64,000 nt of DNA from Gossypium raimondii (lineage: Eukaryota > Streptophyta > Magnoliopsida > Malvales > Malvaceae). Under the pieces are notes generated by a model. That model was not told the DNA's origin. It saw only the letters and a list, made by a program, of their open reading frames with translations, and did not search any database. The stretch lies in the NCBI RefSeq assembly GCF_025698545.1, contig NC_068565.1, positions 930,001 to 994,000 of the forward strand, given 5' to 3'. The first letter of the stretch is position 1. Every line of letters begins with the position of its first letter. A program made the translations under genes and the position numbers. Below, piece by piece: positions 10,338 to 64,000 of this stretch.

Positions 10338-15187
<4,850 letters not shown>

Positions 15188-16545: not shown

Positions 16546-16699
16546 CTAAAAAAGTTAAAAATTACCATATCTAAGTGAGACATGTCAACATGGCCTTACA
16601 TTGTTTTTTAAACATTTTCTAGTATTAGAATTCCGTCCTTTTTCTTACCAAACAAACTGTCATCATAATAAAGATAGACTTTATTTGTTCAAGGGGTGA

Positions 16700-17100
16700 A
16701 TACCCTATAAGATTAGTTGTTAAAATAGAATGTCGATAATGACAATATATTGAAAGTAAAAGGAAAAAAATAAAACACACAGATTTTACGTGAAAACCCT
16801 TTCGGAAAAAAATCACAAGCAGAGGAGAAGAAAATTAACTATGTCGAATTCGAATGATTACAAAGAGTATAGACTACGTCTTATAAAATAGAAGTAATGC
16901 AGTAAGATTGAAACACTTTATTCAAATCAATATCAAACAGAGGAAGTAAACTTCTATATGGATTCTTCTTGTACAGTTTATACCGTACCGTGGAGGCTAG
17001 ACCCGGTTGCGACCTCAGTCCAGTATCTTGTTTATTGGGGATCCATGATAGGCTGCGGCCTTCACCCTCATGGATCCTCCTATCTTGTCACTTGTATTTT
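16700..17100. mobile_element. Retroelement-like relic (LTR-type suspected), broken
   Basis: The stretch with 'acacagattttacgtgaaaa', 'ccctttcggaaaaaa' and 'gcagaggagaagaaaatt' is a phrase I associate with plant retrotransposon non-coding ends. It passes into an unusually GC-rich piece at 16980-17090. No coding domain is present and no paired end was found. Family and age are uncertain; it looks like an old fragment. Confidence 0.3.
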
Positions 17101-19656: not shown

Positions 19657-19827
19657 CTCCCAAAACAACGCTATCAGGAAATAGTTTTCCCTATTTTTCC
19701 CTCAATTCCGTTTCTCCTTAGAACGTAGCGGAACTGTCTCGCACCCTCTCGTTTTCACATTTTCCTATTTTATGCTCTCATCCTCCGCCGTGCCTTCCGC
19801 CGTCGGCTTCCTTCACCACCGCTATCA

Positions 19828-22800
19828 ATGGAGACCCACCGGCGATCTTCGATTAATTCCGTTCGGTCTCACAAGCCGGCAAGGCCAATTGCTTTGGAAG
19901 ATGATTCCACCAAAGCTTCTGACGCATTGCCACTTCCTTTGTATTTAACGAATGCTGTGTTCTTCACTCTCTTTTTCTCGGCTGTTTATTTCCTTCTTTG
20001 CCGTTGGCGGGAAAAGATCCGATCCTCTACGCCTCTCCATGTCGTCACCTTTTCCGAGATCGTTGCGATTCTTGCTTCCGTTGCGTCGTTTATTTACCTT
20101 TTGGGGTTCTTTGGTATCGATTTCGTTCAATCTTTGGTTCTCCGGCCATCGGCTGACGTTTGGGCTACTGAAGATGATGAAGTGGAAAGTGAAGTTTTGC
20201 TTCGTAATGAAGATGCTCGTCACGTTCCTTGTGGACAAGCACTTGATCGGTCGATTCGATCTTTGCAACCTCCGGCACCTATTGTAACTGCTGAGAAAGT
20301 GTTCGATGAAATGCCCGTGACAGTTATGACTGAGGAAGACGAAGAAATAATTAGATCCGTTGTTTGTGGAATGACTCCTTCATATTCTTTGGAATCTAAA
20401 TTAGGTGATTGCAAGAGAGCAGCTGCGATCAGGCGTGAGGCTTTGCAGAGAATAACAGGGAAGTCATTATCAGGATTGCCCTTGGATGGTTTTGATTACG
20501 AGTCGATATTGGGACAGTGTTGTGAGATGCCGGTTGGTTACGTGCAGATTCCCGTGGGCATTGCTGGGCCTTTGTTGCTTAATGGAAGAGAATACTCGGT
20601 TCCCATGGCAACCACCGAAGGATGCTTGGTAGCTAGCACTAATAGAGGCTGTAAGGCTATTCATTTGTCTGGTGGAGCTACAAGTGTTCTATTGAGAGAT
20701 GGGATGACTAGAGCTCCTGTTGTGAGGTTCGGTACCGCAAAAAGGGCGGCTGATCTGAAGTTGTATTTGGAAGATCCTGAAAATTTCGAGACCTTGGCTT
20801 GTGTTTTTAACAGGTTTTTTTCCTTCGAATTCTTGGTTTAATAATTTGTATTCAAGTTAATATTGTTGCTTGTTTGTCTAAGAGTTTTGGGTATTTTTGA
20901 GTTATTGCAGATCAAGCAGGTTTGCTAGGCTTCAAAGCATCAAATGTGCAATTGCAGGGAAGAATCTGTATTTAAGATTCTCATGCTTTACTGGTGATGC
21001 TATGGGGATGAACATGGTTTCCAAGGGAGTTCAAAACGTTTTAGATTTCCTTCAAACCGATTTCCCTGACATGGATGTCATTGGCATCTCCGGTGAGTCT
21101 CTTTTTAATGGATTTATAATTTTGTTCCTGTTAAAATGTGCCTATAGTTCCTGTACTTTCCAAAAATTAGGAATTTGGTCCTACTTTTCAGATTTCAAAA
21201 ACATTATTATTATTTTGGTTAAATTTCTTGCTATTACATTTTGAAATAAAAAAAATACTCATTTGGTAGCTATATAATAAGAAAAGATGTTGTAATTAAA
21301 AATATTATTAACAGTTAGACTTGAATTTTGAAATATGAAAAGTAGGAATAATTTCCTGAAAATACAAGTTCAGGGACTAAATTCCTAATTTTCATTGTTT
21401 GAGCTTAAGATCGTTGAATTTTATTGATTTATGATGGATATAGGAAACTTCTGTTCCGACAAAAAGCCAGCTGCAGTAAATTGGATTGAAGGCCGAGGCA
21501 AATCTGTCGTCTGTGAGGCCATCATTAATGGTGATGTAGTGACGAAGGTCTTGAAGACAAGTGTAGAATCTCTCGTGGAGCTTAACATGCTTAAGAACCT
21601 TACTGGTTCTGCCATGGCTGGAGCTCTGGGTGGATTTAATGCTCATGCCAGTAACATTGTCACTGCTGTCTATATAGCCACTGGCCAAGATCCTGCCCAA
21701 AATGTCGAGAGCTCTCATTGCATCACCATGATGGAAGCTGTTAATGGCGGCAAGGACCTTCATGTCTCTGTCACAATGCCTTCCATTGAGGTAATTGATT
21801 GTGTTGCTCGGGTTTTCACTATCGAAATTATCAGGCATAGTAAAAATATCATACAACTTATGCCCCGATATATGACCCTCTAGGTACGCTCTAAATGCAT
21901 CTAACACGAGAATGAGATATTAAATGCATTGACATGAGTACAAGACATGATCCTCAAGTACACTCGAGTAAATTAGTCGTTCTCCTAGAAAAGTGAGCTA
22001 TTTAGTATTGGTACATTGAAACGGTTAATGATGGTAAGATTGAACGACTTGTCGAAGTGAAAAAAATGATCAAACTACTTTTTAACTGTTGTTGTCTTTT
22101 TAAGGGTTAAATTACTTTTTTGGGTTTGAACTTGGCTACTAGTCTCATGTTGGGGCTTAAAGTTTTTTTGGTCTAAATCAGTCTTTGAACTTGACAATTG
22201 TTCTATATTTGACCTAATTTTTTTTTCAAGTTAGTTTCTGATATTTTCTTAGAAACCCTAAAGCTCAAGTCTCAATATGGGAAAAATTACCAAGTTCAAG
22301 GACTAATTTGGATAAAAAAAAGGTTCATGACTCAATGTAAGAAGAATTATCTAGTTCAAAGATTAATTTGGATAAAAAAAGGTTCAAGCTCTAGTGTGAG
22401 GACAGTAACTTGGTTCAGGTCTGAATATGGGAACAAGACCAGAAAAAGTTCAAGCTTGATATAAGAATTGTTGCCGCGGATCCAAATAATGATTTAACAC
22501 TCTTTAGTTTATGGTACAAGAATTAGTCAGCTCCAACTTTTAGAATTCTCCAATACAGGTAAACCTTGGAAAAAAGGTTAAGATATCCGTATCTTGCCTA
22601 ATAATTTTATATTGTTATGTGATTTATCTTCATAGGTTGGCACTGTTGGTGGTGGAACTCAGCTTGCATCACAATCAGCTTGTTTGAACCTTCTTGGTGT
22701 CAAGGGTGCAAGCAAAGAATCCCCTGGAGCAAACTCAATACTCCTTGCGACTATCGTAGCCGGTGCTGTCCTTGCCGGCGAGCTGTCACTGATGTCAGCA

Positions 22801-22878: not shown

Positions 22879-24363
22879 ATTTGATGAAAAAAATGACCTT
22901 GGTGTCTGTCAAAGCCTGAAAAATTTGGTGTAAAGTTGGAAGCTGAAAGAGAGACATCATCATCTCTTAGTAATAAGCTAAGTAGACTTGCATGTATTTG
23001 TAATTTACTTCTATTTATTTTTGTATTTTGTTTTTGTTTTGTTTTTTAAATTTTTCTTAAGTAAGTCAATGTAATCTGAGGTCTTAGATTTGTGTAAAAT
23101 GACAGGATTGTTATTAGCATTTTCTTTCTTTTGGTTTCTCTTGGTTGAGAAATGAGTTAATTGCACACATCCCTAAATTATGAACTTCATTTTAAATTGG
23201 TCACTAAATTTTTATTTTTTATTTTAAATTATGTCATATAAAATTTTGATGTCTGATTTAATTAATAATTTTAGTAATAGGATTTTATTGAGAATATAAT
23301 TAGAATGTTTTAAAGTTTGAGTACTAATTTAAAACAAGGATTATAGTTTAGATATGTTTGGTGCAATTTGAGAAGTTGGGTCTAAATGTGGAAATATTTA
23401 CAAATTATGTCAATTTAGTCTTTGATTTTTTAAATTAACTTTCAATATTTACACTTTTTTTACATTGAGGGTTAATTTAAAAAATTTAAAAATAGAAATT
23501 ATTATCTTGAATTTTATTTTTAAGTTTTTAAGTGAAATGGTCATAAAGAAAAGTAAAATTACAAAAAATTAAATTACACAATATATAAATGTTGAGAGTT
23601 AAATTTTTTAGAATCAACATTAAATTGATACCATGAATAAAATTTGAAGATTAAAATCGTTATTATGTCAATTTTAAAACCACTATGGTTAGTCACTCAT
23701 TTTATAAGTTTTTATAGTTAAGTGATAACAAAAATACTAATAATTAGATGATTATTTTATAACTTTTAATAATTAGGTGATAAAAAATTACTTTTAAAAA
23801 AGTTCCTAAATTAACAAAGTGTGATTAAAAAATCAATTAAATTGTATAACTATAGGGTAAATTTGAGATTAAAATATTCAATCCAAATAAATAATGTTAA
23901 GCTTGAATGCAAATTTATAAAAATTAATAAAAGAAAAATCAAATTCAATTAAAATACGATTTAAACCAAACCTAAAAATTCACATTTCCATTTAACTCGG
24001 TTATCCGGTCTTGAATTTCGATTACACGTAATGAACCCTAAAATCCACATGGAATTAACCCAATAAAAAAATCCCTAATTGATTCGCTTATATTATGATT
24101 TTCTTCCAACATTTCAATAGCTGAAAGCCTTGGTTTTGAAGCAGAGAAGAGCAAAAAAAGCTTTTTCAAGCTCTTTTCCTTTTCCCTTCTAAAGGTAGAA
24201 ATACATTGTTTCTTTTCTGGGTTTTCTTTTAAATGTTTGATTTCGAAATATTGACTTTATTTTGAATAAATATGCGACCTTTTTTTTTGTTAAATCTAAT
24301 TAGGGTTTTTTGATTAAAGCAGGGGGAGAAAGTTGGAAACAAAGAGCCTAAGCTTATAATTTG
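22879..24363. other. HMGR 3' UTR, repeats and HDA19 upstream region
   Basis: About 270 bases of HMGR 3' UTR lead into a palindromic repeat at 23155-23375 ('aattgcacacatccctaaat' against 'atgtttggtgcaatttgaga'). AT-rich DNA follows. The HDA19 leader probably starts near 24120 and has an intron at 24195-24322 (AAAG|GTAGAA donor, AAAGCAG acceptor) just before the ATG. Confidence 0.5.
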
Positions 24364-27300
24364 ATGGACACGGGAGGGAATTCATTACCGTCGGGACCCG
24401 ACGGCGTGAAGAGGAAAGTGTCGTATTTTTACGATCCGGAGGTCGGCAATTACTATTACGGCCAAGGTCATCCTATGAAACCTCATAGAATCCGAATGAC
24501 GCATGCCCTTTTAGCACACTATGGATTGCTTCAAAATATGCAAGTTTACAAGCCATTACCTGCTCGAGAAAGAGACCTTTGCCGTTTCCATGCCGATGAT
24601 TATGTGAATTTTCTTCGCAGTATAACGCCGGAAACACAGCAAGATCAGCTCCGGCAGCTTAAGCGGTTTAATGTCGGTGAGGATTGTCCGGTTTTTGATG
24701 GCCTTTTCTCGTTTTGTCAAACGTATGCAGGTGGATCTGTTGGTGGTGCTGTTAAATTAAACCATAATATTTGTGATATTGCGATTAATTGGGCTGGTGG
24801 CTTGCATCATGCGAAGAAATGTGAAGCTTCTGGGTTTTGTTATGTTAATGATATTGTTCTTGCTATATTGGAACTTCTTAAGCAGCATCAGGTATGTGTT
24901 TTTAATACTTTAGTTCTTCATTAGCTTTGTTTGGAACTTTAAGAAATAGTTAAGATATTGCGAGCTAGTGCTAGCACTTTGGTTGGGGATAGATGCATCC
25001 AAAGTCCATGGAGGTGGTAGTGGTTTTCAAGATTATACATCCATAGTGAAGTGGGGTGGGTGGTGGAGCAGAGCATGCTAACTATCAGTGGTGATGGGTT
25101 TTGCAACATCTGCCCCCCACCCCGCACCATTGCCATCTCTACCCATTCCTCCATTGAAGGATCAGGCAGAAGGTAGAAAAGCTGAAAACAAAGCCACTTA
25201 TCCGATTTTTCTAGCTTTCTTTTAGAACTTTCTTCTTCATCTTTGAGAGGCGACTGTGTCTTTGTCCCACCCTGGGAAAACAATAGGAAATAGATAAGCC
25301 ATTGCGCACTAGTGCTAGCACTTGTTGACAACCGGGAACCCTCGAAGAATGATAAACAGTTGCTATAGTAGGCATGAAATAATAAACATATACATATTAA
25401 TTGACCCGGATGAATTGTTTAAGTTTTCAATTCATACATTTCATCCTAGATTTTCAAGATTTATGTTTTTGCACCGGTAATAACTTGATGTTGTATAGTT
25501 TGTTATCAATAATGCTTTTCCTTCTCTTTGTTGCAGCGTGTTCTATATGTTGATATCGATATCCACCATGGAGACGGTGTGGAGGAGGCATTTTATACAA
25601 GTGACAGGGTCATGACTGTTTCTTTTCATAAATTTGGCGATTATTTCCCTGGCACGGGGGATATACGTGATATTGGATATTCAAAAGGGAAATACTATTC
25701 CCTTAATGTTCCTTTGGATGATGGGATCGATGACGAGAGTTACCATTTCTTGTTTAAGCCAATTATTGGTAAAGTTATGGAAGTTTTTAAGCCTGGTGCA
25801 GTTGTCCTTCAATGTGGTGCTGACTCCTTATCTGGAGATCGGTTGGGGTGTTTCAATCTTTCGATCAAGGGTCATGCTGAATGTGTTAAATTTATGAGAT
25901 CTTTCAATGTTCCATTGTTACTATTAGGTGGTGGTGGTTATACCATTCGGAATGTTGCTCGTTGTTGGTGCTATGAGGTAACTTATCTTTCACAATTTCA
26001 TTGAATTAATAATATATACTAATTGGTTTAAGCAATTCGGTTTGCTATTGTAATCTAATGTTAATATATGATAAAGGTGGGTAAAAGTATCATGGAGACC
26101 CTTGAATTAGGAGTTGGATTACATTTTAACCCTCTACTAAAAAAAGGAAGAATTGATCTCTATGTGTTAGTTCAAAGAGCAAATTGGTCTTTTTATTGAA
26201 ATCTTCATTTTTACGGTTAAAAACCGGTCCCTGTACGCTAGCATAAGGTACACGTGGGACACCATTGTAAGTGCCTGGTTATTTCGTTAGCCATAGCCCA
26301 CATCAGTTTTTAACAGTTAAATTCTTAACAAAATGGAGTGGATTGCTCTTTGATCTAACATAAAGAGACTAATTTACCCATTTTTTGAGTAAATGGGATA
26401 AAATGTAATCTGACTCCTAATACTGGGGCTTCCATGGTGTTTTTACTGGTAAATGTGAGTTTTAAGGTAGTAAACATTTTCATTGAAGATATACGGCACT
26501 TGTGTTTAATTTATCGAATAATAGTTGTCCTTTTCGTTTCTCGAGTAACCTACACACTTCAGAAGAACTTTTATTGTTTTTGTGCAACTAAATGCTCCTC
26601 TTTACTCAAAAAATCATTATTACATTTTATTCCATTTACTCATCAGCACTTCAAGTTGGTTCTTTTTCGATTTTTCCTGTATTATGGTTGTGATCTTAAA
26701 CTTAGAGGAACTATTTGTAATAATGATTTCTCAATGTAAGCAGACTGGAGTTGCACTCGGAACGGAAGTTGATGATCAGCTGCCTCAACATGAATATTAT
26801 GAATATTTCGGTCCGGATTATACACTTCATGTTGCCCCTAGTAACATGGAAAACAAGAACACACGCCAATTACTTGAAGAAATACGTAATAATCTACTCG
26901 ACAATCTCTCAAAGCTTCAGCATGCACCAAGTGTCCAATTTCAAGAAAGACCACCTGACACTGAGCTTCCCGAGGTGTGTTCCACAGCTTTTTTATGTTA
27001 TTTCTTATCATGTTTTAGTAGCTTCCTTTTGCATCTGGTATCTATCGGGGAAATATATCATGTTTCCCGCTCTCAGTTTTCAATCTTCTCCATATTTGGC
27101 ATTTCACATTTTAATTGTATTGTTGGAGCAGAAGTCATTTTTTTGCCTCTTTTCTGCCCCTCTAATGCAACTGGGTGGTAGTTTACATTGATACATTTCT
27201 TCTTATGTTACTTGGGCCCGGGTACGAATGTCAGATTCGGATATATTCAATTGTGTCCAAGTTTTAACATGTATTTGGAGGATCTTTTAAACATCATATC

Positions 27301-29623: not shown

Positions 29624-32600
29624 TCATGATACTTCTTGAAGTGCTAGATTCAATTCCTGGGCAGATTTTGCAACTGATCCCCCTCTTCTATGGAGAAAAA
29701 CAAAAGAAAACGAAAAGAATAAATAAAAAAAGATCTCTAGAGCAAGCATATGGCAAAGTACCGTGGAGGCACCTATACTAGGTGTGAAATTGCTTTTTGC
29801 CCCCTTTACTCCAAAAAGGGGCAAATTCATCTTTGTATATTAGATTAAAGAGCAAATTAATTTTCTGTTAAAAATTTTATCCATTAATACTGTTAAAAAC
29901 TGGCATGGCTAACAGAATAACTAAACAATGACACGTGGCATGCCACATGAACCTCATGCAGACATACAGGGACCAATTTTTGACAGAAAATGGATGAATT
30001 TTTTAACAAAATAATCAATTTAGATTAAAGAGCAAACTAATATTTTCTGTTAAAAATTTTATCTGTTTATACGGTTAAAAACTGGCATGACTAACAGAAT
30101 AATTTAACAATGACACGTGGCGTGCCACATGTACCTCATGCAGACGTTCAAGGACCAATTTTTAACAGCAAAAATGGATTTAACGTACATGGACTAATTT
30201 GCCCCTTTTTTTGAGTAGAGGGGGTTAAATGCAATTTGGCTCCTAGTATAAGGGCCTCCATGATACTTTTACCCATACAGTTAAACCTATGGTGTTTATG
30301 CAGGTTTTATAAACGCCATACTCACCTAGTAAGAGTGGGAAGACATTGCTTTACTTTTTCTAGTTCTATAAAGCAGAGGTTGCAACGCTCAAACCTAGGC
30401 CAATCAGCAGCATGAAATCTCGGTTAATACCCAAATAACTGAATATTTGAACACTAAATTTACAGTTTAGAAGCAAGTGGTCTGACCTTTGCTCTGCCTC
30501 AATGTCTACACCGGCAGGTGCCAAAGCTGATAATGTTGAATATATCATTGAACCAAATATCCGGACCAGCTTAAGCAGCATGTCAAGACAGATGCTCAAA
30601 TGCCTATACAAAGGTCACATTTAAATATTGAAACTTCATCCAGATACCAGTAGTTACGATAATTTTAACTGCCTATTAAGTATTGAAGCTTAAAGCCACA
30701 GAGAAATACTGAAAACAATTGATGTTTCCAGAACAAATGGAAAATATAAAACCTGAGATCAAGTGACTATAAAGTTGAATAAAAAATGCAAGATTATGAC
30801 ACTGTTCTTACCTGTCCATGTCACTTCCAAGGAGACCGGATAGAAGTGGCAGAAGAGAAGTGCAAATTTCCAATGTTACAATGTCTATTTTTTCAGTAAC
30901 AATGCTCATCACATCAGCAAGCACCTGCAATTTCCATCATCAAAAGAAAAAGTGGCTCATCAATATATTCTGATTTACATAAAAGTTAGAACTTTGAAAA
31001 TGAATGGATGTATTAATAAACATAAACTGCATACACCATGATCAGACATCTTTTCCATTGCACTGATTGCCCCCTTTATGTCATTCCTTTCCCATAGTCG
31101 ATGAACAACCTATATAACCAGCAATATTCTATGAAAACTTCAACACTGTAGATATCTTACTATGAAGTGACCAACTAAAGCATCCAAAAAATCCATTAAT
31201 ATGACTTCAAGTTTTTCTATAATCACCTGTAACTTAGCTAAACGAGACTGCATGGAACCAATGAATTGATCATGCTGCTCCATTACATCTGCAACAGCAT
31301 CCTCATCAGTGGCCGAAGGCATTTCTTTTTCCACAGAAGAAGAGTATCTTCTTCCTTGTTTATACTTCAAAAGTTAACATGAATGCATCATTAGTATTGA
31401 CAGGGATTTTGAGAATATGGAGAAATAGGAAAGAAAGTGAATACAGACTTAGATATGCTTTTACCACGTCGAAAGAAGGCATGTTTGCCACAGATGCATT
31501 CCGTGGAGAGGCACACAAAGTAGGTCCATCAAAATTAGATCTCCTCCTTTTCTCCAAATTTAGGATTACTGAACGTGTTCTTCCTGAATAATTGACTAAA
31601 GATGTTGAGTGATAAGTTCACAGAATTGTGCATAACAACAAGCTATCAACTGATATACCTCCTTTTTGGCTTTCTAAAGGATACGCATCTCTATGTGATT
31701 TTTGCACTTGAGCATCATCTGAAACAAAGGATTAAAGTCAAGCAAGAATGGTTGATCATTTCAACTTGAAAATGCAATAAAAGCCTACTCAAGCTAGACC
31801 AAAACTGAAAACCAAACAAATCCAGAATACATGAACTACGACAACATGCCCACAAGCAGAATTTAGCAGAAACTGAAGTTCAAATCAGTTGTTCTTTTCA
31901 ATCACAATTCATAACCACGGATAATGCTATACATTAACATTCCTCAGGTTCAAATATGTTATCCAAAGGGTATAACGACCTAAAGAGAGATAAAGATACA
32001 CATAAGAATATAACCCAGCCTTAAAATGCATAGAAATATAGTCAGTTTCGAGACCAGAAGAACTAATTTAGAACTACAATTCTTTTGTTAACATAGATCC
32101 AATGTTCATGTGTGTATGCATGTGTGAGAGAGAGAGAGATACAGAGACTCTTGGAAGGTGAATTTCTTTAAGTTCTAAAGCAACTTCTAGGCTTAGCCAT
32201 TTGGTTTAACTCATGTTCAAATTAAATACCAAAGAGACTATATTTTTCAATATTCCCAAACATGTCATTTTCTTTATACAACCAAAAACTAGAGAAGTTA
32301 TTATTAGAACTTTAGAAGGTTCTCATCATTGTTCTCTCCATCTCACTCTTATGTAGTTCCTGTTAAGTCTCAAGAAAAATCTAGTTGTTACCAAGCACAG
32401 TCCTTTACTAAAAGCATTTCAATATAAACATTTTCAGTCATAAACAAATTCAAGGACTAATGATGAAATTGGAGGTTAAGCAAACATATTATACAAAATA
32501 TAAAATTCAGGGGAAAAAAAAGCAGCAGCTAAAATATGGAAGCAGAATGTTAAGTTACGAGTTTTAAAAATATACAATTTTCATCCCGGTAGCTTGAAGG

Positions 32601-53839: not shown

Positions 53840-56486
53840 GATTCGATTTTATTTTTCCTCGTAAAAAAAGCAATCGAAGATGTTTCTCGGTAAGAAATGA
53901 GTTTAAAACAATGTTGAATTTGGAGGTGAGCAATTTTATCGGTTGATATACTTCATGTTTTTCAGTTTAGAGTTGTAGCATTTTGTTACATAAAATGCAA
54001 TATGAGATTTGCTTACAATTACTCCCTCTCTTTATACACATAATAATGAATTGGGTTCAACCAAACCAACCGGTTCATGGATCCTTCTTGACCTATGTTA
54101 TTATCAGGATTTCACTTGCTTGCCCCCTGTTTTATATTTGCAATTTGACACACACATACACGTAATTGTTTTCAGAGTTGGACTGGAACGGCCGGTCAAG
54201 TTGGTTGTACCGGGAATTGGATAGGGTACCAGTTTGGAATAAGGGGTTAGATTAATTGACCCTTGAACCGGTTAGACTGGTGGACAGGCTAGTTGAACTG
54301 TTTTTCTCAATTTTTTTTAATATTTTTTATTTAAATAATTTATTCAGTCGAATTGGGAACTGTTGGTTTGACCAGTTCGACCATCGATCTTGTTTTGAAA
54401 ATCTTAATGTGTATGTTGTAGGTTACCTACAAATCAGTACAAAATTAATTTTGATGGAATTAAAACCAGAGTAGTTAATTGCGGGTGAGCTTGTGAGTTT
54501 TAATTCGGATGGCTCAAACGCTCTTAAATGTACAATATTTTTTAACTCGTATTTGGTTTTCATATTTAACTCGTAGCATGACATGATTAAATGATCTTCT
54601 AAAAATGCTTCAAACTTGAAAAAAAACTTAGAAAAATTGTCAATATCCATTTAATATTCGAACCTAAATTCAAGTAAGATACTCATGTTCATTATTCTCC
54701 CTCAAAGGGTTTTCTGACTTACAATGCACTGATAGAGCTCGGCTTCTACGATAGGCACATGCTGTGTTTGGTGAAGTCCTTAGGGAACATAAGACATTAT
54801 CTTTAATGTTCTCTTCCACGGTAACTCACCTTCAAGAGCTTCTTTGACACATCTTGCGCAGATCCACCAGCTTAACCGGATTCTCATCTTCACATTTACT
54901 CTCACTGTTCTTAGAATTAAATTAGTGGTTGAACTAATTAGTCTAATTGATTTGATTGAAAAACCATTAAAAATAAAGAAAAAAAATGTTCAAACTCGAT
55001 TGAATTGGTTCATGCTGATTTATGAGTCAGTCAATCTAATCTTTTATTTTAAATTAATATGTCAATTTTTAATTTAACCAATCTAATTAATCAATTGGTC
55101 CGATTCTAAAAATAATATTGACTCTCCCTCAAAAGGGTTCTCCGTCATGCCATCATACTGTGCTAAAATATTTGACACAAATGTAGAACCCGAATAGTTA
55201 AAACAAAATACAGTGATAGAAGCTCTACCGTCATGGTGCTTTCGAAATGAAAAAAGAAAAAAGGGGACCCAAATCCTAAAATATCTCCACTTACTATTTA
55301 TACTGTTTAAAAATGTCCTTTCCCACAAAGTCCAATACCCAATCCACTTGCTTTGCGTAAAGCATAAGATAACAGAAGCGAAAAGCAAGTCTTTTCGTCA
55401 ATTCCTTTCCTTTGGTTTCATCGCCATTTTTGCTTTAGATTTTAATTTCTCTGTTTTGAGAGACCATAAACTAAAGCGATCATGGAATCCGGATTTATGG
55501 AAACATAGGGAACCACTCAGTCGATTCGATCAAGAAAGTGGCAAAAACTAGATTCTAGGTAAAAATTCTGACATTCTCACTCTTTTCTCTTCTTTTTTAT
55601 TCCACTTTTTTCGATTACTATAGGTTTTTTTTTTAAATGGTTAGATTCTGTTATTAGTCCCTATACTTTGTAAAAATTGTGAATTTAATCTTACACTTTC
55701 CAAATTGATCAATTTTAATCTCTATATTTTTTAGCAGTTAAATTTCCTTGGTTAGTATTGTACTATGCATGTAGTTGTATATTTAGTTGGTATTCTCTAA
55801 ATAGATCATTCTAATATATTTTTCGAAGTGAAATTTTTGACACAATTTTCATGCAAGCTGACCAAAAGCTTCTTAAGGATCCTTTCATCAGTGAAACTCC
55901 TTGTTGAGCAAACTGACTGTCAATATAATATGTTGTATACGACTAGTACCAGTTTGGTCAATGTCAATAGAATATGAATTCCATTTGCTTTTAGAATAAT
56001 TACTTTTATATTTATTTGATAATAATCATGGACCTCACAATTTTTATTAAATTTGTGGATGGATTAGGTTTGGACTGGACTAATTTCATTCTATTTAAAT
56101 TATTATTTAATTAATATCATTTTTATTTAAATTTAATTTAAAGATATGTGCTTGGGCAAAATGTCATACCCATTTTTCGGGTCAGGCCCTGGCCTAGAAA
56201 ATGGGTCCAAAATTCGGTTGAGGCCTGGCTCAGTCCATAATCAGCTCCAATTAATGATGACTGAAATTTTATAATTCGAAAAAGTATAAGAATTAAATAA
56301 AATAAAATTAAAATATAAAGATTAAATCTACAATTTTCGTAAAGTATAGGAATTGATAGCAGAATTTAACTAAAAAGAAATTATACTCTTTGATGTGTAG
56401 AGTAGAGAAACATGTTCTTTGAGACATTTCTTCAAACATTTGGAACATCGTTTAAAGTGTATTGTGCCTTTTGATTGCAGGAGAAA
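53840..56486. other. TOM40 3' UTR, repeats and SDE3-like 5' UTR
   Basis: The TOM40 3' UTR is followed by an 'accggt' repeat at 54060-54400. The SDE3-like leader exon probably ends at 55558 (TTCTAG|GTAAAA). Its leader intron 55559-56480 ends in TTGATTGCAG and is nearly filled by a palindromic repeat (55635-56372). Confidence 0.5.
55635..56372. mobile_element. Palindromic MITE with extra inner sequence (SDE3-like leader intron)
   Basis: Left end 'gattctgttattagtcccta' is mirrored by the right end 'gtataggaattgatagcaga'. Inner blocks 'aaaattgtgaatttaatc' and 'gattaaatctacaattttc' also pair. About 300 bp between 55850 and 56250 do not belong to the palindrome and look like later additions, one of them a 'gggtcaggccctggcc' repeat. 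Confidence 0.55.
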
Positions 56487-59400
56487 ATGTCTTGTTTTCC
56501 TGAGATCTTGAAGTGTATTCTGTGTTGTGAAGACGAGGATATTGGGATTATTGATAACCGAACTTCTTCCAGAGATGCTTTTAGTCGAACTTACAACACT
56601 TTTCATCGTAGTTCCTCCATAGGTGAATCGTATCGTAGTTCCCAAACTTGGAGTTACCCAACATCATCCCTAAGCTCATCACCCGGAAATGAGTGGCTAT
56701 ATAACATTCATTCATCTACAACTTCAACCAAACCATCTCAGTCCTCGGTTAAGCCGGTTCTATATCCTCCTAGTCCGCTGCCATCATTTAAAACGTCATT
56801 CACGGCCCAAAAACCATCTCCATCACCTAAAGGACTGACACCACCTAAATCAACCACACCGTCTCCGAAACCCTCTTCCTCGTCTTCTAAGCCATGTCCA
56901 TCCCTTAAGCCAACTCTATCGGAACTAGGGAAAGGAACGTACAAAGCAGTCTATCCAAAGGATGCGTTACCGATTTACATGATTCCGAAGGATATCGAGG
57001 ATTTAATCAAGAGAGACATTGTGCCTGAAGTTTTGGGATTGACATCACCTAAACCAACCACACCGTCTCCGAAACCCTCTTCATCGTCTTTTAAGCCAAG
57101 TCCATCCCTTAAGCCAACTCTATCGGAACTAGGGAAAGGAAAGTACAAAACACTCAATCCAGAGGATACATTACCGATTAAGCCGGTTCTATATCCTCCT
57201 AGTCCGCTGCCATCATTTAAAACATCATTCACGGCCCAAAAACCATCTCCATCACCTAAAGGACTGACACCACCTAAATCAACCACACCATCTCTGAAAC
57301 CCTCTTCATCGTCTTGTAAGCCAAGTCCATCCCTTAAGCCAACTCTATCGGAACTAGGGAAAGGAAAGTACAAAACAGTCGATCCAAAGGATATGTTACC
57401 GATTTACATGATTCCGAAGGATATCGAGGATTTAATCAAGAGAGACACTGTGCCTGAAATTTTGAAGAAGCCATTGTCTGCCTCTTCATATCAGGATTTC
57501 TTTGCAGCCCTTCTATATGCTGAGGATTCCTATATTGAGGTAATGAGATAGGTTTGCCGTTAATTAAGCAATGATTCATGAAGTACAAAGTGATGAAAAC
57601 TTACAATGGGCTTGATCGGATTTGATTTGAATTGTATTTTACCGTTTTTACTAAAAAAATGAGCAAATTATTTTGTGTATGTTGAATCAAAGAGCAAATT
57701 GTTTTTTTCAGTTAAAATCTGATGGAAGAATCAAACAGTTACACATAGCGTGCCACATGTACCTCATGTTGATTTAAATTTTTATCAGTAAAAATGGATT
57801 AAATTTTTTGTAGAACCAATTTGCTCTTTTGATTTAACCCGGCTACTAATACAATGGCCTCCACGACACTTTTACTAGAAATTCATCTCTATACCCCAAT
57901 TTTCAAATATGGGTAGACCCGGGTGTTGGAACGGATAGTGCAAGAAAAACAAGAAGGGAGAATGCTTTTGGCAATGACTGTCATCTAATCTAAGAACATT
58001 GTTCACTGACGTACTGGGCAAGTAAACTCAAAAAAAAAAATGGAAACGCAGAACATCATAGCTAGAAACTAATGAATGCTTTTTTCCCCCCTCTGAAACA
58101 GAAATGGAGCAGTTTTGCGTTGGAGAATGTATCCATGGAGTTCCATTCAGCAACAATCTCTCAAAAGTCGGGAGAAAACAAGCATTTGAAAGCAAGTAAA
58201 AAGATGGATGATAAAAGTTTTGCAGTATTTAAGGTGGATTCTCTTTCTAAGGCACGACCATTTCTTCTGTCAAGGGACTTCGTCTTTGCAAAACGTGTAG
58301 GCAAAGAAACCAAACCATTTCAGGTTTCGACTCTTACTCTTTGCATGATCATGCATGTACCATAATATCTAACATGATACCTTATTTGAGCTTTTCAGCC
58401 AAGACTTTATAGCATGGTGCATATGAGCTCAACCTTATTCCAAGATTCCATGTGTTTGGAGAATCTTTGGAGGATACTATATGCCCGGATATGCTTTCTA
58501 TATTGATATTGAACATTGGTACTTCAAGAAAAATGTTGGAGTAACATAGGGTTCAACAAACAATGCATTTAAGAATTAATTTTGCAGCTCCCTAGCTAGC
58601 TTGTCTATCAAGTGAATAATTGGGGGTGAATGTATTTCAGAGATCTCTCTATTATAGGAACTTTATCAAATTAGTCCTCTATTATTAAATGGATCAATTT
58701 AATCCCTTTACTATTAAAAAGAATCAAATGAAACCAAAATCAAATAGAGTTAACATTTACTATTTAACAGAGTTAATATTTTAAAAGTTTTGTAAATGAA
58801 ATCTTTTATTTGAAATTGAACTGCAATTGAAAAAATAAAATTTCAGACATTTTTATACCGTAAATGTTAACTCTGATACAATTTGGACATATTTTATTCC
58901 TTTTAATATTATAGGGACTAAATTGATCCATTTAACACTAGAAGGATTAATTTGATCCGTTCCCTATAATACAATGACTAATTTAGGGCATCTTAGCATT
59001 TTGCATTTGTTGCATAGTCTAGATTAATAATAATATATTTATATGGATGATTTCATGGAACTATTAACTCTATACCCTGCTGAACAACAAGAATATCATG
59101 TCATTCAACTAAATGTCTCATGCAAAGTTCCGGGAAATCCTCGTGATTTGACCTAAGTCTGCAAAATTCTTTGATGATGATGTGCAAAGTTCAAAATTCT
59201 CTTACCTCAAGTGTGTGATGATATGTTTTTCATTGATTCCATCATGTAGTCGAAGTTCGAAGTGTGAAAGGTCTTAAATCTTTTCTTTCTCCTTTGTTAC
59301 ATTCTTGTGTTTTTGTTGCAGGGTGTTATATATCGGGTTGTGAAGAGCACGTCCATACTAGTCGAATTCGGAGAGGAGTTTCATTCTCAGCATGATTCAA

Positions 59401-60284
59401 CCTGCAGATATAATATTAGTTTCTCGTTTAACAGAGTATGTTTGAAAAGGGCTCACCAAGCGATCGCAGCAGTGTCTGCTTCATTAATAGGAAAGTTCCT
59501 TTTCCCTAATTCTTTCTCCCTACATCCCATGCATAACTCGGAATATTATAATCTTTATGACCATAATCTCAATCTAGATGAAAAGTCTGCAGTTCATCGT
59601 ATTTTGAACATCCGAGGCCCTCCACCATTTCTAGTAAAGGGTCCTCTCTGTGCAACTTTCAACGGTAATTCCGAATCCATTTCAGAGCAACTTTCAAGAA
59701 CTGGACTAGTTGTTAAAGAAGCAGTGCTGCAAACTTATCTACGTCACCCGCAATCTAAAATCCTTGTCTGCGCACCTATAAATAGGACATGTGATGTGCT
59801 AACGAGAAGCTTGAAAAAAGACATTCCAGCTTCTGATATCTTCAGAGCCAATGCTGCATTCAGGGAGATAGAGGGGGTTCCTATCGATATTCTTCCGTCT
59901 TGCCTTTACAAATGGGATGCCGAATGTTTCAGTTGTCCTTCGCTCCATAAACTAAGGGAATTCCGAGTCATATTTTCAACTTTTGCAAGTAGTTATCGGC
60001 TGTACAATGCCGGCATATCTGCCGGACATTTTAGCCATATCTTTTTGGTGGATGCTTCTTCAGCTACTGAACCAGAGACACTGGTGGCTTTCGCTAACTT
60101 TGCTGATGACAGTACAACCGTGATAGTTACCGGTGCACCCGGAAATCGTTCAAGCACTGTCCGTTCAGATATTGCTAGGCAAAAGGGATTGAGAATATCA
60201 TACTTCGAAAGGCTTTACAAGCTTAGTCCATTCAAGAATGATGATCCAATGTTCATTGCACAGCTTAAGGACCGATCACTTTAG
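56487..60284 (+). CDS. SDE3/MOV10-like protein, truncated and lacking the ATP-binding motifs
   Basis: Exons 56487-57539, 58102-58323 and 59322-60284 give 745 residues in an unbroken frame. Residues 1-~300 are new to the family: MSCFPEILKCILCCED, then Pro/Ser/Lys-rich repeats. From about residue 300 it follows Arabidopsis SDE3 (LPIYMIPKDIEDLIKRD, ENVSMEF, GVIYRVV..FGEEFHSQH, LFPN) into RecA domain 1. There the Walker A loop GPPGTGKT is replaced by GPLCATFNGN (532-541), the Walker B DEAG by VDASS (668-672), and GDPRQLGP by GAPGNRSS (696-703). Motif Ia survives as ILVCAPIN. The protein stops at QLKDRSL, before RecA domain 2 and the GW-rich AGO-binding tail. It should not hydrolyse ATP. The long open frame argues for a retained or recently lost gene. 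Confidence 0.8.
56751..57466 (+). repeat. In-frame coding repeats in the SDE3-like N-terminus
   Basis: A ~287-bp block starting AAGCCGGTTCTATATCC at 56751 returns at 57180, 429 bp (143 codons) later. Between them sits an extra ~145-bp module, so the unit PKSTTPSPKPSSSS..SLKPTLSELGKG occurs three times. The copies are very similar, mostly single-base differences, which suggests recent unequal exchange. Confidence 0.9.
57635..57882. mobile_element. MITE family A copy 5 (SDE3-like intron 1)
   Basis: Contains the family words 'gaatcaaagagcaaatt', 'agcgtgccacatgtacctca', 'aaccaatttgctctttt' and the right end 'aatggcctccacgacacttt'. The left end is worn ('accgtttttactaaaaaaa'). No clear target duplication. 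Confidence 0.6.
58430..58560. repeat. Interspersed repeat family B, short copy (SDE3-like intron 2)
   Basis: Contains 'gtttggagaatctttggagg', 'atatgcccggatatgc' and 'tacttcaagaaaaatgttgg' followed by 'agtaacatag', in the order seen at 27250-27375. Confidence 0.5.
58640..58995. mobile_element. Palindromic MITE-like repeat (SDE3-like intron 2)
   Basis: Left 'attataggaactttatcaaa', 'attaaatggatcaattta' and 'gagttaacatttac' are mirrored by right 'gtaaatgttaactc', 'aaattgatccatttaac' and 'gatccgttccctataat'. About 350 bp, no coding frame. Confidence 0.6.
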
Positions 60285-60406
60285 GGCTATTGCTAGGCAG
60301 AAGGGATTGAGAATATCATACTTCGAAAGGCTTTGCAAGCTTAGTCCATTCAAGAATGATGATCCAATGTTCGTTGCACAGCTTAAGGACCGATCACTTT
60401 AGGGCT
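60171..60406 (+). repeat. 118-bp tandem duplication of the SDE3-like 3' end
   Basis: 60171-60288 and 60289-60406 are the same sequence with three single-base differences. The first copy ends the reading frame (TAG at 60282-60284); the second lies in the 3' UTR. Confidence 0.95.
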
Positions 60407-60823
60407 GTAAATGAACAAAGTGTTCAATTAACAATTCATGAACAAGCTTGTTCAGTTATTCTCATTAATAAGCTCATTTATGTTCATTTAAAACTCAATT
60501 AAAACTCTTTTATTGTATATTAATAAATTTGTTTTATTGTTTGAGTGTTTATATTATTTATTTATAATATGATTATTAATATTTATATTGATTATTTTAT
60601 ATCTAAAAATTAATATATGTTTATTTATGATTTTTTTAATTCATAAACATTATTTGTAAACATATTCAACTATATGTTAACGAATATATTCGTTTAACTT
60701 AACCAAATAAACATATATCGATTTGAAACTATTAACGAACATGAACCAAACACATACAAACTTAAAAATAAACAAACGAACATAAACAGAAATTTGTTCT
60801 TTTAAACTCGGTTCATTTACAAC
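60403..60823. mobile_element. MITE, 'GGGCTGTAAATGAAC' type, downstream of SDE3-like gene
   Basis: Starts AGGGCTGTAAATGAACAAAG and ends CGGTTCATTTACAAC, an imperfect terminal inverted repeat. The inside is AT-rich with 'gttcattt' and 'aaatgaac' words. About 420 bp. The first six bases of this end also appear in the first copy of the 118-bp duplication. Target duplication not found. Confidence 0.55.
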
Positions 60824-61084
60824 AAATGAACAGGTTAGCCAAAAAAGAAAAATCCAAGATTACAAGAGGCTAAAAAATTAAAAAAGGCGTCGTGAAATTG
60901 TGTGATGTTTCATTCTTAAATACTTATCCTACTTCTCTCTCACAACATATAAAGTTGCAGTCAAAAGACCTTCATCGATGAAAATTTCATCAATCATTCG
61001 GAATAAAATACGAATGACAGATTAGTAACCATAATATCTAAAAGAGTTCATAAACCTATTAATCAATTCAAAACATTAGCAAGA

Positions 61085-64000
61085 CTAGACATATTTCCCT
61101 CTATATTTCAGTTTTGATCCTTTACTTACTTTTGAATCACCAGACTCGGCATCTGCTGGACTGAAAACCGAAGAGTGAAGATTACCATTTTCTAACCATT
61201 TGAGATGATTCTCCCTGAATTCCAAATGTTTTATCCTAGCTGCCAAAGCGAGTTCCTCCATGTACAAAGATGTCTTTACCATGGTGAGTAAAACACGACT
61301 GTATCGTGAGCTGAGCATCTGTTCGGAAGTGGCAACTAACTTAAAACATGGATGTTCCGGGAAATGGGTTTCTACAGAACCATCTTCTCTCAACACAGGA
61401 TAGAAGAATACAAGCCTGCCACCCATTACGAGCATCCTAGCAGCAAGATCAAGCAAGTCATGGACACACTCAACTAGGGTATAAGTTGCAGTTGATGGTA
61501 TATGGTCTGCCCTTTTGTCATCAGGGACAGTGTAAGGGCTAACAATCCCCTTGAGTAATTTTCGACCACCAGACTTACGTCCACCGGCCCGAACACCGTA
61601 TGGGGGATCACAGATTATCCCATCAAACACCTATGCAAAAGCAAGAAGGGATACTTATAATCAAAGACACATGGAAGAGGCGACCATAAACAAACCAAAA
61701 TAATCTCTTATAAAACTTCAAATGATCCTCTCTAAGCACTCGTTCATGTGTGTTAGTGTTTTTCGATCAAAACAACACCACGAAGACTTATTGAGCTCAA
61801 AAGAATTAAGAAAAATGTTGATCAAAGAAGACCTATGAATTCAAAACAATTAAAAATAGGGTTATATCATTTTTGGGGGCCTGATCTTGGCAACTTTTCT
61901 CACGTTAGAGCCTGAACTTGGCAATTGTTCCCACATTGGGGCTTAAATTTTTTTTTGTCCAAGTTAGTCCTTGAAAACCATAAAGCTCAAGCTCCAATGT
62001 GGGAATAGCTGCCAAGTTCAAGCCTCAGATTTGAGAACAATTGCCAAGTTCAGGGACTAACTTGGACAAAAAAAAAAGATCAAGTCCCAATGTGGTAAAA
62101 ATTCCTTAATTCATGCCCGAATGTAGGAACAATTGCCAAGTTCAGAGCCTAACTTAGACCAAAAAGAATTTTAGATCCCAATATGATAATAGTTGCCAAG
62201 TTTAGGCCCCAAATAATGATTTAACCCTCAAAAATACACTAGCATATTTAACAGCAAGCAATCATACAAGAAATTACCTCCTTTAATCCAGGACGCCAAG
62301 GAGGAAGGTTGTTATCTGCCCTCAACAAACCAATTGGCATCGGTAATCCATACTACAATGCAGCAAATAAATATATATTCTCAAACACATCTATTGCATG
62401 TAGATAAAAACCAAAAACAAAAAGATGAATTGCTTATTATGTGGCACATTCACCTGTTTGAAGTTACTCCAGACATTACAATCAGGGCCACGTCCATCAC
62501 GAACTACTCTAATGTCGATATCTGCACCCTGAACAAATCCAAGAAGTTGTCAATAGACCAAAGTTACTGCACAAATGTTTGTCATATGATTTCCAAAAGA
62601 AAGTCATTGATTGATTGATTCAATGAATGAATATTTTGGACTAAATTGAGAAAATGCAATACCATTGTCATTGCTCCAAAGTGAGCAGCAGAAACAAGAA
62701 TGCTCCCAGTGCCAACGAAAGGGTCATAAACAAGTTTCCCAGGTGCAGCCTGAGCTTGATTGGCCATTAAGAAAGCCATTTCCGCATCCATTGCTGTTGG
62801 TCCAAGATAATTTCGGGTTTTCAATTGATACATTGGTATAAGTTTCCTGTCAGCTCCACCAATTTCCCTACCAAAGAATATTCTCCTTTTAACAACCGGT
62901 GGAAGTCCATTATTAGTCTCATTTTCATCAGTTTCCATTAGCCAAAAATTGTGATCTGGGTTCTTTAAATTAACTCGACCCTGCAAAAACAAGTCGATTG
63001 AGTGTTAGAACTTAGAAACCCATTATACAAAATTTACAGATATAAGCTATTCCAATTCTTCTTCTCATTTCCAAAATATAACAATTTTTTCCTTCTCTTA
63101 CATGCTTGGATGCAAGCTACACTAGTACCAACAAGCAGGGGTGTAATTGAGAAACTGATGCTTGCAAGCTACTCAAGTTCTACTCGAAAAAAACTCAAAC
63201 TTGATTTGGTAATTCTCAAGCCGAGCTCAAGTTATCAATTGAACTGAATTTGAGTTCAATAATAATGGCTCACGAGCCTTATTGAGCTTTTCATTTTTAA
63301 TATATATATTTAATATTTTATATTATTAGATTATGTTATTATCCTTAATATATATTATCAACCCTAAGCTTAATATTGAGCCGAGCTCGAGCTTGAATAT
63401 GTACAAGCTTAATTGAGCTTGAGTACAAAGCTCAATTATATCTCAAGCCAAGCTCGAGCTTAAAATTAGATGTTTGATCAAGCTTGAGCCAAGCATTTAG
63501 ATTCGAATTTTGAATGGAGCTCGAGCTTGTCATTATTCAAGCTCAGCTCAATTACACTCCTAGCAAGATATTAGGGTCAGGGTAAAAATAATTCAAATCC
63601 AACCTGATCATCTTCCAATCGAATTCTAGCCATCGAGCAGATTGAACTCAAGTATCTAACAGTGAACTCAAATAATTCGCAAATGCAAGCACAAACGATT
63701 GAACTATGAGAATTAAGCTTAATTTTTACTAACTCCTATTAAGCAAAGCTCGAGCATCTTTATCTCGAATCAAGCTTCACGACATTGATTTCAAGTTAAG
63801 CTCAAGCTCAACACTATTATGCATTAACATTTTATAAATAAACTGATTAATCAAACCTTGAAAGGAATATAGGAAAGCCCTTGAATCCGTTCATTCTGTT
63901 CCTGAAGACTCAATACTTTCCCAAAACTATCAACAGTAATCTTAAACGTACTTTCGTACTCCAAATATGGCAACTTCCGTTCATCTGGATAACTTTTCAC
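61085..64000 (-). CDS. TRM11: tRNA (guanine-10-N2) methyltransferase, TRM11 catalytic subunit, 3' part
   Basis: With the small zinc protein TRM112 this enzyme puts N2-methylguanosine at position 10 of cytosolic tRNAs. Visible exons (minus): 64000-63857 (open at the window edge), 62980-62663, 62528-62454, 62352-62278 and 61630-61085. All joins are in phase 0 and give 402 residues plus stop; the N-terminus lies outside. Motifs: LKTRNYLGPTAMDAEMA and DPFVGTGSILV (SAM-binding motif I), then DPPYGVRAG (catalytic motif IV, DPPY). The first visible part (YPDERKLPYLEYESTFKI) belongs to the THUMP-bearing half. Two repeats occupy introns. Confidence 0.94.
61858..62235. mobile_element. Palindromic MITE family E copy 2 (TRM11 last intron)
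   Basis: Left end GGGTTATATCATTTTTGGGG pairs with the right end CCCCAAATAATGATTTAACC. Multiple 'gaacttggcaattgttccca' blocks alternate in both directions. Flanks TAAAAATA and CAAAAATA match at 7 of 8 bases and may be the target duplication. Same family as 22105-22505. Confidence 0.65.
63137..63560. mobile_element. 'GAGCTCGAGCTTG' MITE (TRM11 intron)
   Basis: Ends AGGGGTGTAATTGAG and CTCAATTACACTCCT form a clear inverted repeat. The inside is dense in 'agctcgagcttga' words on both strands around an AT-rich centre. Part of the same vocabulary continues at 63718-63812, outside the right end. Confidence 0.6.

Follow-up and report, generated by a model that had tools for sequence, protein, structure and literature searches.

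A putative ATPase-dead SDE3 paralog with a single RecA-like domain in Gossypium raimondii

The 64-kb stretch C1:930001-994000 of the Gossypium raimondii genome (hereafter the window; positions without a contig name are counted from its first nucleotide) carries on its forward strand a gene whose product resembles the SDE3/MOV10 helicases but has neither their ATP motifs nor their second RecA domain. We favor, with moderate confidence, the reading that this SDE3-like gene is a long-lived, ATPase-dead SDE3 paralog with a single RecA domain, which has been kept as a protein and acts by binding. The evidence comes from the gene structure, from a comparison with relatives found in the whole genome (750.8 Mb in 281 contigs), and from codon models and neutral simulations.

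The gene model comprised three exons that together encode 745 codons from the ATG without an internal stop (Table 1). The open frames underlying the exons (56475-57551, 58066-58365 and 59268-60284) were joined at consensus splice sites; both introns were of the GT-AG type and in phase 0, and their positions were identical to those of the first two introns of two paralogs located on C11 and C9. Because the introns match the paralogs in position and phase, the gene is not a retrocopy. The original prediction had described 745 codons without a stop or frame break, which was correct, but the span that it assigned to them, 58102-60284, is limited to exons 2 and 3 (394 codons and the stop) and leaves out exon 1 at 56487-57539. 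The G+C content was 39-43% in the exons and 31-34% in the introns. By eye, TTGCAG was found immediately 5' of the start codon, which suggests that an intron lies in the 5' untranslated region upstream of it.

When exon 3 was used as a genome query, four places matched: the exon itself, its own 118-bp tandem copy, C11:9.907 Mb (37% identity) and C9:47.596 Mb (36% identity). The protein matches had E-values of 2.8e-46 with the C11 paralog and 1.4e-42 with the C9 paralog; the proposed likeness to SDE3 in the core and RecA1 is thus beyond chance. The homology to both paralogs spanned the beta-barrel and RecA1 over 300 residues, with identities of 36-37%, or 33-34% by tblastn, and the C11 paralog also showed a tblastn match in exon 1 at 57372-57539 (E=1.2e-5). 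The Pfam matches of exon 1 to Mov-10_helical and of exon 2 to PF21634 were weak and under the cut-off. The C11 (9.905-9.908 Mb) and C9 (47.594-47.598 Mb) paralogs are complete genes with GPPGTGKT, DEAG or DESG, GDPKQLGP and RecA2, and the models made in this analysis contained 860 and 876 codons, respectively. We take both to be SDE3 on the basis of the original prediction and of MOV-10 Pfam hits. On this sequence evidence, namely the homology and the shared intron positions and phases, the SDE3-like gene belongs to the SDE3/MOV10 family by descent and is the third and most divergent of the three SDE3-type genes found in the genome. The structures of the products are nevertheless different: the SDE3-like protein is devoid of the GKT, DE and QLGP motifs and of RecA2, and a Pro/Ser-rich N-terminus stands in the place of the SDE3 N-terminal domain.

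To describe these differences, we defined conserved columns as the alignment columns that are identical in both motif-intact paralogs (C11 and C9). In motif I, the GPPGTGKT of the paralogs reads GPLCATFNGNSES in the SDE3-like protein, with a 14-residue insertion in and just after the P-loop; the pattern GxxGxGK[T/S] is absent, and GPLCATFNGN with the insertion is found instead. By eye, a 21-nt mini-intron (gtaattccg...ttcag) was considered as the source of the insertion and rejected, as plant introns are much longer than this. The DE of motif II is replaced by VD. The original prediction had listed losses in all three motifs; the P-loop loss was borne out, with the insertion to be added, as was that of motif III in the form GDPKQLGP to GAPGNRSS, whereas the register of motif II had to be corrected from DEAG to DASS into DEAGQ to VDASS. 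In total, 5 of the 20 conserved columns were kept in ATP motifs I-III, compared with 19 of 28 in the RNA-side motifs Ia, Ib and Ic (Fisher p=0.008, with the motif limits picked after the alignment was seen). Judged from the motifs, the SDE3-like protein is predicted to be ATPase-dead, and, going by its homology to the paralogs, it may have kept a helicase fold.

We also searched for RecA2 (motifs IV-VI) by tblastn with both paralogs and found none in the window and none downstream of the transposon at the 3' end of the gene, in agreement with the absence that had been claimed. When the RecA1 and RecA2 exon of the C11 paralog was used as a genome query, 14 matches were obtained: the exon itself, the C9 paralog, the SDE3-like gene without RecA2, and 11 others. 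For all of these 11, a different AAA_11 helicase place is found at a distance of no more than about 8 kb, which leaves no orphan RecA2 among the matches. The SDE3-like protein scored 23.8 bits against Pfam AAA_11, below the cut-off of 27, whereas the intact paralog exons scored 121.7 and 112.1, and the gene was not among the 24 places of a genome-wide AAA_11 search. A similar picture was obtained with UPF1 (PDB 2xzo and 2gjk), an active helicase with two domains, whose RecA1 match was strong for the C11 paralog (E=1.4e-45) and non-significant for the SDE3-like protein (E=0.053). Two other AAA_11 matches in the genome contained internal stops, C2:47658306-47658764 (three stops) and C9:45754131-45754394 (two stops); these are candidates for helicase pseudogenes or for intron read-through.

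Selection was assessed with a codon model of the three genes, using either 255 strictly aligned codons or all 297 codons. The ratio of nonsynonymous to synonymous substitution rates (omega, dN/dS) on the SDE3-like branch was 0.137 (255 codons) and 0.200 (297 codons) in the two-ratio model and 0.196 and 0.231 with free ratios, and the two-ratio model lost 9.0 and 9.5 log units when it was fixed at 1. Neutrality is therefore rejected for the long-term average of the branch (omega about 0.14-0.23). A single omega of about 0.10 for all three branches fitted as well as the two-ratio model; because the latter gained just 0.04 and 0.4 log units, no faster evolution or relaxed constraint was found on the SDE3-like branch in this test. 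The C11 and C9 paralogs are separated by about 2 synonymous substitutions per site, and the SDE3-like gene therefore likely split off at least as long ago as these two split from each other.

The kinds of amino acid change pointed in the same direction. In 500 neutral runs over the 255 codons, in which stop mutations were rejected, the mean BLOSUM62 score of the changed residues was -0.778 (sd 0.131, best -0.378); the observed mean of -0.245 was milder than all 500, with a small bias because the alignment itself favors mild changes. The hydrophobic class, which is subject to the same bias, gave a weaker signal, being kept at 68% of the changed columns compared with 58% under neutrality (sd 4, best run 70%). 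Neutral runs that reached the observed divergence discarded 16 stop mutations on average over the 255 codons, and never fewer than 5.

The age of the catalytic loss was approached by asking how long an unselected frame survives. The 745-codon frame stayed open in 1.3% of 2000 runs at 0.05 neutral substitutions per site with substitutions only, and practically never when indels were added at an assumed rate of one per ten substitutions, 75% of them frame-breaking. At 0.02 substitutions per site, the probability that the whole frame stays open was 0.158 with substitutions only and 0.0055 with the assumed indels. The aligned segment of the C11 paralog remained open in 18% of runs at 0.05, in 4.8% at 0.1 and in 0 of 2000 at 0.72 substitutions per site. 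Neutral release beyond about 0.02-0.05 substitutions per site would thus usually break the 745-codon frame. First and second codon positions differed from C11 at 21 of 40 positions in the ATP motifs and at 139 of 372 in other conserved codons. Because the divergence of the ATP motifs exceeds what an unselected frame survives, the catalytic loss probably preceded any release, which suggests that catalysis was lost long ago and that the frame was guarded by selection afterwards. Accordingly, the two explanations offered at the outset fared differently: a pseudo-helicase kept for binding is favored, a very recent release from selection is unlikely to account for the motif loss, and an old loss followed by a recent release persists as a rival.

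That rival draws in part on the 3' end of the gene. The frame ends with ...KDRSL-TAG, and the TAG at 60282 lies in sequence that matches the end of a small transposon, TAGGGCTGTAAATGAAC. The region 60406-60870 had at least 46 genome matches including its own copy (40 of 295 candidates scored). At the transposon boundary, the copy on C11 shares TTTAGGGTTGTAAATGAACAAAG, and the copy on C8 has TAGGGTTGTAAATGAAC at one terminus and the pattern in reverse at the opposite one; the copy on C9 is more diverged. Since a dispersed element ends in TAGGGCTGTAAATGAAC, the stop codon looks like transposon sequence. Apparently, the 118-bp tandem duplication copied the transposon junction upstream into the frame, and the 3' end of the gene looks like one set by a transposon whose terminal sequence supplies the stop. 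Exon 3 has no clock comparably recent to the repeats of exon 1, since the 118-bp duplication provides three differences and only the first of its copies is part of the frame. In exon 1, the two 290-nt repeat copies differ by 3 synonymous and 11 nonsynonymous changes, with proportions of synonymous and nonsynonymous differences (pS and pN) of 0.041 and 0.051 over 96 codons, which are small numbers; pN was above pS in each of three comparisons of the nested 144-nt unit, which overlap and are not independent.

These observations would fit a young pseudogene, whose ATPase-dead product had long been in use until the transposon and the 3' duplication cut off its C-terminus, the frame being not yet broken. 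The stop codon in transposon-like sequence, the tandem duplication and the near equality of pN and pS all fit this account, and as long as neutral change stays under about 0.01-0.02 substitutions per site, the whole frame could plausibly remain open. The start codon and both splice joins are intact, however, and the simulations leave room for a short neutral period only. We regard this explanation as less probable, though it is the most serious of the alternatives.

The N-terminal exon raised another alternative. Exon 1 consists of 33% Pro and Ser and had no other genome match at E<=0.001, so that the prediction of a Pro/Ser-rich N-terminus in place of the SDE3 N-terminal domain held. The clustered cysteines at its start, MSCFPEILKCILCCEDED (56487-56540), could be acylated. 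An exon with no such match and with in-frame repeats might have brought a new, unrelated activity, for example that of a membrane-tethered scaffold with a Cys-rich and Pro/Ser-rich N-terminus, in which the helicase remnant would serve only as a fold. Against this, the repeats show no visible constraint and the RNA-side motifs were kept better than the ATP motifs, and we think such a change of activity unlikely. Finally, a release from selection while the protein was still an active SDE3, with the motif loss itself as decay, would explain why the ATP motifs are among the worst-kept columns, but it is very improbable, as 21 of 40 ATP-motif positions have changed, many stops and frameshifts would be expected over 745 codons under neutrality, and omega=1 on the branch is rejected.

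The preferred reading, a binding protein without a motor, would run as follows. A third SDE3/MOV10-family gene, long separated from the other two, would have lost ATP binding and hydrolysis long ago. The remaining protein would carry a new Pro/Ser-rich N-terminus, followed by the MOV10 beta-barrel and a RecA1-like domain whose RNA side is better kept than its ATP side. It could bind RNA, silencing ribonucleoproteins (RNPs) or SDE3 partners without unwinding or translocation, and might serve the two motif-intact paralogs as an adaptor or compete with them; a transposon would have fixed its 3' end and given it its stop codon. We infer RNA or partner binding as the most likely mode of action; a role in silencing and a present-day function are putative. 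Tentatively, the gene may even belong to an ancient line of ATPase-dead SDE3 paralogs with a single RecA domain, maintained alongside active SDE3 and shared with other plants, acting as a motorless RNA/RNP clamp or as a competitor that tunes silencing and transposon or virus control.

Several points weigh against the preferred reading. When the ATP motifs were compared with all conserved columns outside them, of which 90 of 187 were kept, the difference reached only p=0.06. The synonymous length of the SDE3-like branch is saturated; at the profile 95% lower limit, dS is about 1.6 and omega would then be about 0.4. Moreover, the omega of this branch averages in the time preceding the catalytic loss. 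The repeats of exon 1, the sole recent clock, show no visible constraint, and the gene terminates at a tandem duplication next to a transposon, as decaying genes do. The age argument is weaker if the motif changes came as few large events, e.g., by gene conversion. A dead copy also need not be useful, because human MOV10 motif mutants are reported mostly to lose activity (PMC3475670).

The same source provides the closest comparison for an ATP-motif-dead protein of the MOV10 family. According to PMC3475670, all motif mutants of human MOV10 still co-precipitate with L1 RNPs, and mutations in every motif but Ia and V weaken restriction; these are laboratory substitutions in a full-length protein, whereas the SDE3-like gene is natural and encodes one RecA domain. 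Utp25, described in PMC9539457 as the first fully validated pseudohelicase, likewise uses the helicase fold with dispensable catalytic motifs, but it is of the DEAD-box type, with two RecA domains, and is known to act in ribosome assembly. No report of a plant ATPase-dead SDE3 paralog was found among the titles and abstract starts of the open-licence papers listed, and the gene may well already be annotated in plant sequence databases. Scans of public collections of viral and genome contigs yielded no relatives, a result without bearing on orthologs because these collections do not cover plants. If still used, a natural motorless MOV10/SDE3 protein would separate the binding roles of the family from the ATP-driven roles, and the effect of losing it could be studied against a background of two motif-intact paralogs in the same plant. 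If dead, it would be a case of stepwise decay of a silencing-helicase gene, in which catalysis went first and the 3' transposon followed.

We also examined the AGO-hook tail, which had been noted as missing. The SDE3-like protein contains no GW/WG sites, so the absence itself is real; the tails of the intact C11 and C9 paralogs carry only one and two, respectively (C11 has three more near its N-terminus), and we therefore rejected the loss of the hook as a peculiarity of this gene. In keeping with this, the SDE3 AGO-hook is reported only in Asteraceae and Brassicaceae (PMC10991848).

Table 1. Positions of the SDE3-like gene, its motif regions and associated repeats in the window.
Feature	Position	Strand	Description
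Exon 1	56487..57539	+	351 codons; ATG, Cys-rich start MSCFPEILKCILCCEDED, Pro/Ser-rich region, then end of MOV10-type helical region (IPKDIEDLIKRD...SYQDFFAALLYAEDSYIE); open frame
In-frame direct repeats in exon 1	56746..57464	+	two 290-nt copies, 95% identical, 429 nt apart; nested 144-nt unit present three times; includes duplicate of the IPKDIEDLIKRD segment
Exon 2	58102..58323	+	74 codons, first part of MOV10 beta-barrel; acceptor CAG/AAATGG, donor CAG/GTTTCG
Palindromic MITE-like repeat in intron 2	58640..58985	+	inverted arms
Exon 3	59322..60284	+	320 codons and TAG; covers the rest of the beta-barrel and a RecA1-like domain; ATP motifs and RecA2 absent
Former P-loop (motif I)	59640..59705	+	GPLCATFNGNSESISEQLSRTG replaces GPPGTGKTMT, 14 residues inserted; 3/8 conserved columns kept (alignment)
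Motif Ia region	59760..59795	+	ILVCAPINRTCD; 7/11 conserved columns kept
Motif Ib region	59838..59864	+	IFRANAAFR; 6/7 conserved columns kept
Motif Ic region	59964..59993	+	RVIFSTFASS; 6/10 conserved columns kept
Former motif II (Walker B)	60048..60062	+	VDASS replaces DEAGQ; 0/4 conserved columns kept
Former motif III	60132..60155	+	GAPGNRSS replaces GDPKQLGP; 2/8 conserved columns kept
Tandem duplication, 2 x 118 bp	60170..60405 (60170-60287, 60288-60405)	+	97% identical; the frame stops in the first copy, and the second follows the stop codon
Small inverted-terminal-repeat transposon	60401..60826	+	exact ends read by eye

The repeat in intron 2, which resembles a miniature inverted-repeat transposable element (MITE), had at least 82 genome matches including its own copy, in many places on both strands, the others being 67-83% identical (40 of 1114 candidates scored). 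No shared neighbour genes were seen when the 185 open reading frames (ORFs, >=60 aa) of the window were compared with a 169-kb segment that contains the C11 paralog. Besides the SDE3-like gene, only two window ORFs, 12598-12885 (-) and 16628-16834 (-), matched the C11 flanks; neither was counted as a shared neighbour because both belong to dispersed families. They are fragments of dispersed repeats coding short peptides, with at least 150 genome matches each (the best 150 of 3216 and of 2311, respectively). On the minus strand, the frames at 61085-63004 looked by eye like one methyltransferase gene, in which 62585-63004 matched UPF0020 in Pfam and 61088-61630 had no Pfam hit; about 260 bp separate the end of the nearest opposite-strand frame from the transposon at the 3' end of the SDE3-like gene.

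Elsewhere in the window, Rfam MIR7502, presumably a cotton microRNA (miRNA) family, scored above the gathering score at three places: 2019-2155 (-), 29866-30008 (+ and -) and 30048-30185 (+). These matches may come from a family of hairpins derived from repeats and not from individual miRNA genes. Additionally, we found an exon of an HMG-CoA reductase gene at 19729-20838 (+), matching positions 2-130 of PF00368, and two exons of a histone deacetylase gene (PF00850) at 24352-26001 (+).

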